From Pseudomonadota bacterium (GTDB lineage: Bacteria; Pseudomonadota; Alphaproteobacteria; Micropepsales; Micropepsaceae), in assembly GCA_021804785.1 (NCBI GenBank), contig JAJZGY010000001.1, forward strand, positions 62,001-126,000: DNA of 64,000 nucleotides, in the 5' to 3' direction. Each line of letters starts with the position of its first letter. Within the stretch, counting starts at the first letter, position 1. The notes under the pieces are model-generated. The model was given only the letters and a program-made list of their open reading frames with translations. It was not told the origin of the DNA and searched no databases. Position numbers and translations under genes: made by a program. Shown piece by piece: positions 57,460 to 59,629 of this stretch.

Positions 57460-59337
57460 TCATAAGCGAGCGGCGAGTTCGGCGGGATCTGGCGTAACAT
57501 TCGCCGCCGCCGGAGGCGGCAGAGCTTTAAATGTACTAGCGGCCGCCTGTGCGGCCGCCACGTCCGCAGAACTCATGTGGGCTGCAAGCATATCAAGGCG
57601 GGCTTTCGACTGTGCATCGCCTTGGGCCGCTGCGATGGAGTACCACATGAATGCATTTTTAAGGCTCGGGGCCACACCAGAGCCTCGTTCAAAGAGCACA
57701 GCAAGGTTAAACTGTGCATCAACAACACCATACTGAGCCGCGGCCACAAACCATTTGGCTGCTGAGGTGAGGTCAGGTGTACCACCCCAACCTTCAGAGT
57801 ATCCTACGCCCAACCTATACATCGCCTTAGCGTTGCCGGCAGCAGCAGCCTTTGCGTACCATTGTTGCGCCAGAGCAAAATTTTGCGGCAGTCCCAGACC
57901 GCGTTCATAGAGTGTCCCCAGCCAATAATCGGCTACCGGCTGATTTTGCAGCGCAGCCTGCCGTAGCCAATAAGCTGCGCCGGGAATATCCGTCGCAGTG
58001 CCGTCACCGTTTAGCAATTTGAGGCCAACGACAAGTTCGGCATTTGCGCTCCCCGCCTTGGCCATGGCCACTATGCGGGCATCCACGGTCGTGCGCATCG
58101 GAACAGTGGTCACTTGCGATGCTGGGCCGAATCCTGGGGGGAGGAGATGCAAATCTATCAGTGCGCCAACAGCACCTATCGCCAGCAAAACTGTCAAAGA
58201 AAGTGCAACCACCCATTGCTTTCGCGGCAACCAGAGAGTGCGTCGTCCCGCGGTCTGCTTGGATTGACGACTCTTTGTCGAACGATCATGGCGAGCTGCG
58301 ATCGAGGAGGCCCCCTGGGTATGCGCCTCCTGTGAATTGAGCGACTGCGCCCCTTGGTCTTCAGCAGCGTTGGGTATTCTAGCTGTTCGCGCCAGCCAGT
58401 TTTCTACCGCGCTAATTCGACCCGTCAGTTCTTTGACATACATGCGAAGGTCTGCGACCACCAGCGCATGCTGCTCGTTGCGTTCCAAAAGTGAGCGATG
58501 GGAGGTTCCCAGGGCCTCGGCCATCTGGTTCGTCAGCCGACCCTGTTCTTCCTCGAGTTTTGCTCGTGTTTCTTCAGATTCTTGAACGAGGCGATCAATC
58601 CGTCCCTCTACAACGGTCAACCCTCTCTCGAGGCTGTCCAGACGTCGAACCAGTTCCACATGCACAGTTCCACGCTCTAGCCGATGGATGCGAGACTGAA
58701 GATGTACGATGCTCTGTTCAATATCCTGCGGATCCACCCTACCGGCTTTCTCTGTGCTGCCCTGCCAATCACCCCTTGGTTCCATCTCACGTAGACGCAC
58801 CTCCCCGAGTGCTGAAACGGACGCCTCCCCTTCCTGCACGATCTCCTCGGGAAATGCATCAGGAATGGGCTCGGGGTTGGAGCTGGGATCGGCAAGAAAC
58901 TCGTCCGCCGATTGACGTACGACGCCGAGCGCCTGTTCCAGTTCCACGAGAGATTGCGGCCCACGGGGCGAAGAAGCAGGGGGCTTAGAAAACGTCAGGG
59001 CATCGAAATTCGACCCTGAGATTGGCATAGAAGCACTCGGCTGCTGATCTTTTGCGTCCAGAGTAGGTCCGGTCCCCTTGCCAGTACCGTCGCGCATGAC
59101 CTCGGCGATGGTCTCCAGATCATCGGCAACCAGGGCAAGATGCAGATCGTCCTTTGTCACAAAATAGGTGTAGACGACAGTGGCGGCGAAGCCCGCTTCA
59201 GCCGCTACCCGGCCCAGGGTTACCGCATCGATACCTTCACGCGCGGACAGCCGCCGGGCCGCCGCCAGGATCGCCTGCCGGGTGTTATCCTTTTTCCAAT
59301 GATCGACGTCTTTTGGGTCTGCGCTGAGTTCGGACAT
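57460..59337 (-). CDS. TetR-HTH / coiled-coil / TM / Sel1-repeat fusion protein
   Basis: 625 residues from ATG 59337, behind GGTGG; the ORF opens at 59349. By ORF-track numbering: residues 22-69 are a TetR-type HTH (TRQAILAAARRLSAREGIDAVTLGRVAAEAGFAATVVYTYFVTKDDLHLALV); 90-205 are disordered, acidic and Pro-rich; 206-320 form a coiled-coil; 355-378 are basic; 379-401 form a single membrane helix; 433-585 hold about four Sel1 repeats (AAYWLRQAALQNQPVADYWLGTLYERGLGLPQN..., LAQQWYAKAAAAGNAKAMYRLGVGYSEG). Topology places the DNA-binding head in the cytosol and the repeats in the periplasm. The C-half resembles PodJ-type polarity factors. The HTH lacks the usual TetR ligand domain. Function unknown. 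Confidence 0.85.
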   Translation of the reverse strand: MSELSADPKDVDHWKKDNTRQAILAAARRLSAREGIDAVTLGRVAAEAGFAATVVYTYFVTKDDLHLALVADDLETIAEVMRDGTGKGTGPTLDAKDQQPSASMPISGSNFDALTFSKPPASSPRGPQSLVELEQALGVVRQSADEFLADPSSNPEPIPDAFPEEIVQEGEASVSALGEVRLREMEPRGDWQGSTEKAGRVDPQDIEQSIVHLQSRIHRLERGTVHVELVRRLDSLERGLTVVEGRIDRLVQESEETRAKLEEEQGRLTNQMAEALGTSHRSLLERNEQHALVVADLRMYVKELTGRISAVENWLARTARIPNAAEDQGAQSLNSQEAHTQGASSIAARHDRSTKSRQSKQTAGRRTLWLPRKQWVVALSLTVLLAIGAVGALIDLHLLPPGFGPASQVTTVPMRTTVDARIVAMAKAGSANAELVVGLKLLNGDGTATDIPGAAYWLRQAALQNQPVADYWLGTLYERGLGLPQNFALAQQWYAKAAAAGNAKAMYRLGVGYSEGWGGTPDLTSAAKWFVAAAQYGVVDAQFNLAVLFERGSGVAPSLKNAFMWYSIAAAQGDAQSKARLDMLAAHMSSADVAAAQAAASTFKALPPPAAANVTPDPAELAARL

Positions 59338-59629
59338 GGCAACCACCATAGATGATTCTCGGTGTTAACACGCCGCTAATCGCCTAAAAGAGATATACCC
59401 TCAACCGCTTAAGATGAAGTTAGACCAATAATCAGTTTTTAAATTGTTTTGTCAGAGTGCACCGATAAACCATCTAGAAAGCTGAATTTCCCTTTGTAAT
59501 CTCGGGTATTGAAGAGACAAAGCAGTTCCAGCATACCTTACGTACGCACCGGTCTGAACGAGCTTCAAACCTCGTCCTCGTTTTGTCCCCAGCAAGCCCT
59601 AGGTGCTGTCCCAAATCCTGAGCTTAGTA

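Follow-up and report, generated by a model that had tools for sequence, protein, structure and literature searches.

A TetR-type DNA-binding head on a predicted transmembrane Sel1-repeat protein, an apparently undescribed family from one uncultivated alphaproteobacterial group

TetR regulators are seen as soluble proteins that sense a ligand. The window, the whole 64,000-nucleotide stretch of DNA analysed here, contains a gene whose product combines a TetR-type helix-turn-helix (HTH) with a membrane helix and Sel1 repeats, and a preliminary description made from the letters alone had likened it both to ToxR/CadC-style one-component regulators and to PodJ-like polarity factors. We wondered where such a protein comes from, whether its head is still a DNA-binding domain, and what it could do at the membrane.

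The gene is a single frame of 629 amino acids on the minus strand, uninterrupted by any internal stop (Table 1). The span given earlier, 57460-59337, lies in the same open reading frame, but position 59337 corresponds to the second in-frame methionine (M5) and the frame itself opens at 59349. Pfam recognised TetR_N at 44 bits, against a cut-off of 24, and Sel1 repeats over the C-terminal third of the protein. In NCBIfam, weak TetR-type matches fell on the N-terminal part and Sel1-type matches on the C-terminal part; no NCBIfam model scored above its own cut-off for the protein, and no model in either collection spans the full layout. Within its own genome the head ranks 11th of 27 TetR_N matches (48.0 bits, own-genome score), and is thus a typical TetR HTH.

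Table 1. Positions of the TetR-TM-Sel1 gene and of its parts in the window
Feature	Positions	Strand	Basis or remark
Whole gene, 629 aa	57460..59349	(-)	alternative start M5 at 59337
TetR_N helix-turn-helix, residues 27-72	59134..59271	(-)	Pfam E 2e-11; PDB sequence matches AcnR, CprB, DesT, AcrR
Recognition helix, residues 56-62 (Y60, Y62; K66 immediately past it)	59164..59184	(-)	AlphaFold2 helix; contact positions compared with own-genome TetRs
Helix alpha4, residues 66-89, final element of TetR-like head	59083..59154	(-)	AlphaFold2
Acidic disordered linker, residues 90-206, net charge -10	58732..59082	(-)	AlphaFold2 and charge count
Long coiled-coil helix, residues 228-322	58384..58668	(-)	AlphaFold2 and family alignment
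Basic juxtamembrane linker, residues 323-376, net charge +5	58222..58383	(-)	charge count
Single transmembrane helix, residues 377-401, hydropathy peak 380-398	58147..58221	(-)	AlphaFold2 and hydropathy; N-in, C-out by charge
Sel1 repeat domain (predicted periplasmic), residues 424-591	57577..58080	(-)	Pfam E 1.3e-25; Foldseek to Sel1 structures LpnE 6deh, AlgK 3e4b
Upstream non-coding stretch, 280 nt, candidate own promoter/operator	59350..59629	.	without convincing palindrome

An AlphaFold2 model built with 35 family members placed head helices at residues 12-38, 45-52, 56-62 and 66-89 (pLDDT ∼95), the alpha1-4 pattern of a TetR DNA-binding domain. The rest of the model consists of a disordered stretch, a 95-residue helix with the family motif VDAWLERRLRVFE close to its start, the membrane helix, and Sel1 helices at pLDDT ∼98 that form a solenoid resembling known Sel1 structures in Foldseek. 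Residues N-terminal to the only hydrophobic segment carry a net charge of +4 and those C-terminal to it one of -1, so the head is predicted to be cytoplasmic and the repeats periplasmic; one transmembrane segment with positive charge on the N side was found in nearly all of the 58 members of the group. The predicted order of parts and their topology are therefore as the preliminary description had proposed, on the evidence of Pfam, AlphaFold2, the acidity of the linker and the flanking charges. A predicted DNA-binding domain and at least one transmembrane segment in one protein make this a transmembrane regulator by layout. It is not a TetR regulator of the usual build, a soluble protein of ∼200 amino acids with an all-helical C-terminal ligand/dimerisation domain: what comes after alpha4 is the linker, the coil, the membrane helix and the Sel1 repeats. 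Pfam found in it no Trans_reg_C winged helix, by which homology to ToxR and CadC would be recognised, no XRE domain of the RodZ kind and, C-terminal to the repeats, no peptidoglycan-binding domain as in PodJ.

Alongside the TetR-headed protein, its genomes encode a longer one (∼800-1000 amino acids) that begins with MRPDIPWNVAGIPxEAREAARAAARREGLSVGEWL and consists of coiled coil, disorder, one membrane helix and a Sel1 domain homologous to that of the TetR-headed protein. We call it PodJ-like by architecture, as no Caulobacter sequence entered the comparison. In a tree of the Sel1 region, the TetR-headed and PodJ-like proteins of the order grouped into a single clade (SH-aLRT 99), apart from the outgroups taken from other Alphaproteobacteria, and the TetR group was one side of a branch with a support of 78 once five doubtful or headless rows were left out. 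This topology is compatible with a single origin of the TetR group but falls short of proof. The simplest history consistent with the tree would be a duplication within the order, after which the N-terminus was exchanged for a TetR head. The likeness to PodJ suggested earlier thus goes beyond resemblance: the Sel1 half is paralogous to the PodJ-like scaffolds of the same order, with a homologous Sel1 domain behind one membrane helix, while a TetR head stands in place of the PodJ-type N-terminus and its cytoplasmic coils and the N-terminal motif of the PodJ-like proteins is absent.

In the genome of the window the PodJ-like protein is itself reduced. It has 494 amino acids (contig C69 near 37.5-39 kb; locus L219, 256..1740, minus strand), carries coils and a membrane helix, and ends shortly past the latter without the Sel1 domain of its relatives. 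Since one short Sel1 fragment on contig C95 was all that was otherwise found in this genome, the window gene encodes the only full Sel1 domain of that type detected there. One PodJ-like protein from another family outside the order (L070) ends in a peptidoglycan-binding-like domain.

The N-terminal ∼45 residues of the PodJ-like proteins (PWNVxGIPxEAREAARAAARREGLSxGEWL in L112, L146, L099, L063 and others) look weakly like a ribbon-helix-helix. NikA-like matches to these N-termini were found in 10 of 25 members, at best with an E of 1.4e-5, below the cut-off, and the structural model was of low confidence; if the likeness is real, both paralogues bear heads of a DNA-binding type. The group also includes a Sel1 membrane protein (L188, 3042..4430) whose head, with ITNVPDDAKAAAREGARRAGVPVGAWVSERIL, recalls the N-terminus of the PodJ-like proteins and may be of a second kind.

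We lean, with modest confidence, towards a transmembrane one-component regulator built on a PodJ-type scaffold, in which a TetR HTH would have replaced the cytoplasmic N-terminus after the duplication and the Sel1 repeats would serve as periplasmic input. The same ancestry can be read differently: the protein may have stayed a polarity or envelope scaffold of the PodJ type, its TetR head tying a chromosomal site or the whole nucleoid to the membrane or the pole, with control of transcription incidental. The paralogy of the Sel1 half, the match of disorder, coiled coil, membrane helix and periplasmic repeats to PodJ (PMC8980812), and the loss of Sel1 from the genome's own PodJ-like protein, which leaves the TetR-headed protein with the only full copy found, all speak for a scaffold; yet the gene neighbourhoods contain iron uptake genes, argC or metG rather than division or polarity genes, and the N-terminal coils that Caulobacter PodJ needs for its polar localisation are absent as such. 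We regard the scaffold as possible but on the whole unlikely. A more specific version, that a polarity scaffold became a membrane or pole anchor for one particular chromosomal site through its TetR head and so couples periplasmic state to the position of membrane and chromosome, seems to us improbable too, although worth keeping in view.

Does the head retain the features of a DNA-binding domain? We compared intact heads, defined as those with at least 25 bits against the own-genome TetR profile, with 30 canonical TetR domains from the same genome at two positions, Y42 and K48, which we take to be contacts following the numbering of TetR-DNA complexes. The equivalent of Y42 was aromatic in 25 of the 28 heads scored, and Lys or Arg stood at the equivalent of K48 in 27 of the 28; the canonical domains had Tyr at the first position in 19/30 cases and Lys at the second in 28/30. 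The misaligned row of L156 was omitted from this count (its motif, read by eye, is AAVYRQFTRKEDL). By pairwise Nei-Gojobori estimates, most pairs of closely related members have a dN/dS of 0.03-0.2 in the HTH, values lower than those of the linker and often also than those of Sel1; the recognition helix was unchanged or nearly so in several of these pairs. The HTH is thus under purifying selection in most pairs by this sequence measure; constraint is not uniform, as values among L039, L041 and L071 reached 0.30-0.46.

Not all members have kept the head. In a 17-member sister clade the Tyr has become Arg in most scored heads, and scores are at most 27, several falling below detection. Other lineages have no head at all, and the DNA ahead of the headless genes L055, L056 and L057 contained no HTH remnants, so that these losses look real. 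By parsimony, the state of the head changed 11 times between intact and not intact. L035, the full-length homologue most similar to the window protein, carries Arg in place of the conserved Tyr and Thr in place of the conserved Lys, and thereby lacks both phosphate contacts. The preliminary description had held that homologues lacking DNA-contact residues in the HTH would speak against its proposal; such homologues exist in L035, the Tyr-to-Arg clade and the headless lineages, but the contact pattern persists in most of the 28 other intact-headed members. With the head degenerate or absent in so many members, the rest of the protein must have some function that does not involve binding DNA.

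The loss of heads in several lineages and the missing contact residues of L035 invite another explanation, in which the HTH is a protein-protein module and binds no DNA. RodZ offers a precedent: it is bitopic, and its cytoplasmic HTH has MreB rather than DNA as its partner (PMC6946637). However, most intact-headed members keep the DNA-contact positions at least as well as ordinary TetRs do, several close pairs show strong conservation of the recognition helix, and the HTH of RodZ is of the XRE type, unrelated to TetR; we find this explanation doubtful.

How widespread is the fusion? An intact TetR head is joined in frame to the same TM-Sel1 part in 28 other genomes (for example 'Alphaproteobacteria bacterium' REEB43, UBA1303 and UBA1301), with a constant order of parts in independent assemblies, and Pfam detected TetR_N in 22 of the 26 members of a first alignment. 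A sequencing or assembly error that merged two genes, the danger raised in the preliminary description, has nothing in its favour and can be given virtually no credence, because the frame is free of stops and the identical in-frame fusion recurs in all these genomes. Searches at family and at order level returned the same 96 genomes, from seven genera of one family. TetR-headed members lie in the genus of the window and one sister genus (L168, L171); in the other five genera the matches listed cover the Sel1 part only, mostly from long frames. Head-starting matches occurred only inside the order in a sample of the class (385 genomes, 276 genera), and in a sample of the phylum (399 genomes) the only one at an E of 1e-70 or better came from the window's own genome; as both sets are samples, rare cases elsewhere are possible. 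A search of genome contigs with exact peptide patterns found no close relatives. Thus, the TetR-TM-Sel1 family is real and conserved in one uncultivated alphaproteobacterial group. It is also apparently undescribed, in agreement with the initial impression that no named family has this layout: Pfam and NCBIfam have no model for it, and we found no mention of such a protein in the literature searched, of which few subscription papers formed part.

We then asked what the neighbouring genes suggest. A gene for an LLM-type monooxygenase, itself preceded by SDR and TetR genes, stands 280 nt ahead of the window gene; on the other side are a tRNA, which was the only Rfam match near the gene, a DUF202 gene, metG and bpt (the last two named by eye). 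The metG side is common to L035, L036, L037, L048, L058, L059, L163 and L169, identifying the window gene as a positional orthologue. No neighbour is common to all members. A gene for an FTR1 iron permease lies upstream on the same strand in 24 of the ∼56 loci with enough flank, usually accompanied by a cupredoxin and sometimes by a P19-type Fe2+ transport gene. A conserved cassette of P19-type Fe2+ transport, cupredoxin, FTR1 and Sel1 genes, in that order, was seen in L060, L164, L165, L166, L173, L174 and L178-L180, in some cases preceded by a TetR gene. FTR1 was rejected as a universal partner, since none was matched in the genome of the window at 96% completeness; a role in iron uptake can therefore not hold for the whole family.

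The state of the head varies with the distance to FTR1. Of 15 genes less than 200 nt from FTR1, 14 have no head or one of under 25 bits, whereas 8 of the 9 with a gap of at least 400 nt have an intact one. In the latter group the gap contains a divergent gene, which encodes a secreted YWYYC...GYYPYV protein in L036, L048, L158, L160 and L162 and reads as a serine beta-lactamase/esterase in L037, L156 and L159 (both by eye). The YWYYC..GYYPYV protein is rich in His, Trp and Tyr. This pattern is in keeping with a head whose target is its own or a divergent promoter and which decays once the gene joins an FTR1 operon, although it comprises 2-3 independent contrasts and is not significant; we rejected a statistical link between head decay and FTR1 proximity on account of these few independent events. 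A search for operators, by upstream inverted repeats in the window and 33 homologues and by shared 7-8-mers, yielded nothing clearly above chance. One stretch, CTTAAGCnGTTGA at window 59400-59413 read on the minus strand, precedes the gene in the window and in L035 only; it could be a promoter or operator element.

Taken together, the domains, predicted topology, conservation, paralogy and HTH constraint established by sequence comparison suggest how the putative transmembrane regulator could work. It would be a single-pass inner-membrane protein and a candidate DNA binder. The long coiled coil may dimerise the protein, as the ligand domain does for soluble TetRs, and the flexible acidic linker would let the pair of HTHs reach DNA near the membrane. 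In the periplasm, the Sel1 solenoid would bind a partner protein or a ligand; binding could alter the geometry, stability or position of the dimer and, through it, the occupancy of target promoters. Its own promoter region and a neighbouring or divergent envelope gene would be the likeliest targets, a suggestion we make tentatively. An HTH mounted on a polarity-type membrane scaffold, with the ligand domain absent, would give a very common HTH family a new route of input. Moreover, one scaffold with the head variously kept, decayed or lost in nature offers a ready comparison for what DNA binding contributes.

Several known systems share parts of this plan. Transmembrane transcription regulators of the same general build are widespread according to a survey covering more than 100 domains (PMC10269533). 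Among them ToxR, CadC and TcpP likewise have an N-terminal cytoplasmic DNA-binding domain, one membrane helix and a C-terminal periplasmic domain; their DNA-binding domain is of the winged OmpR/PhoB type, whereas the window protein has a TetR-type HTH, a long acidic linker, a coiled coil and a Sel1 solenoid. On sequence evidence it is ToxR/CadC-like in layout and not homologous, and a ToxR/CadC-type function is plausible. With the soluble regulators AcnR, CprB, DesT and AcrR it shares the TetR_N HTH, the alpha1-4 arrangement and the Tyr and Lys contact positions, but it has no ligand-binding/dimerisation domain, is predicted to be anchored in the membrane and is 629 rather than ∼200 amino acids long. 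RodZ is also bitopic, with an N-terminal cytoplasmic HTH and a periplasmic domain; it differs in the XRE-type, MreB-binding nature of the former and the kind of the latter. In Rhizobiales, ExoR is a periplasmic Sel1 protein that controls a signalling pathway and so feeds into gene regulation (PMC4550343); it is soluble and secreted, however, and acts through the ExoS/ChvI two-component system.

By descent the protein belongs with the scaffolds. Caulobacter PodJ comprises coiled coils, a disordered region, a membrane helix, periplasmic repeats and a peptidoglycan-binding domain (PMC8980812). PodJ and the PodJ-like proteins agree with the window protein in a disordered and coiled-coil cytoplasmic part, one membrane helix and periplasmic Sel1/TPR repeats, but the window protein begins with a TetR HTH in place of the PWNVxGIPxEAREAARAAARREG motif of the order's PodJ-like paralogues, has a shorter coil and bears no peptidoglycan-binding domain. 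We therefore describe it as a new variant, a transmembrane regulator by layout and a PodJ-type scaffold by descent, and as a putative working member of either class.
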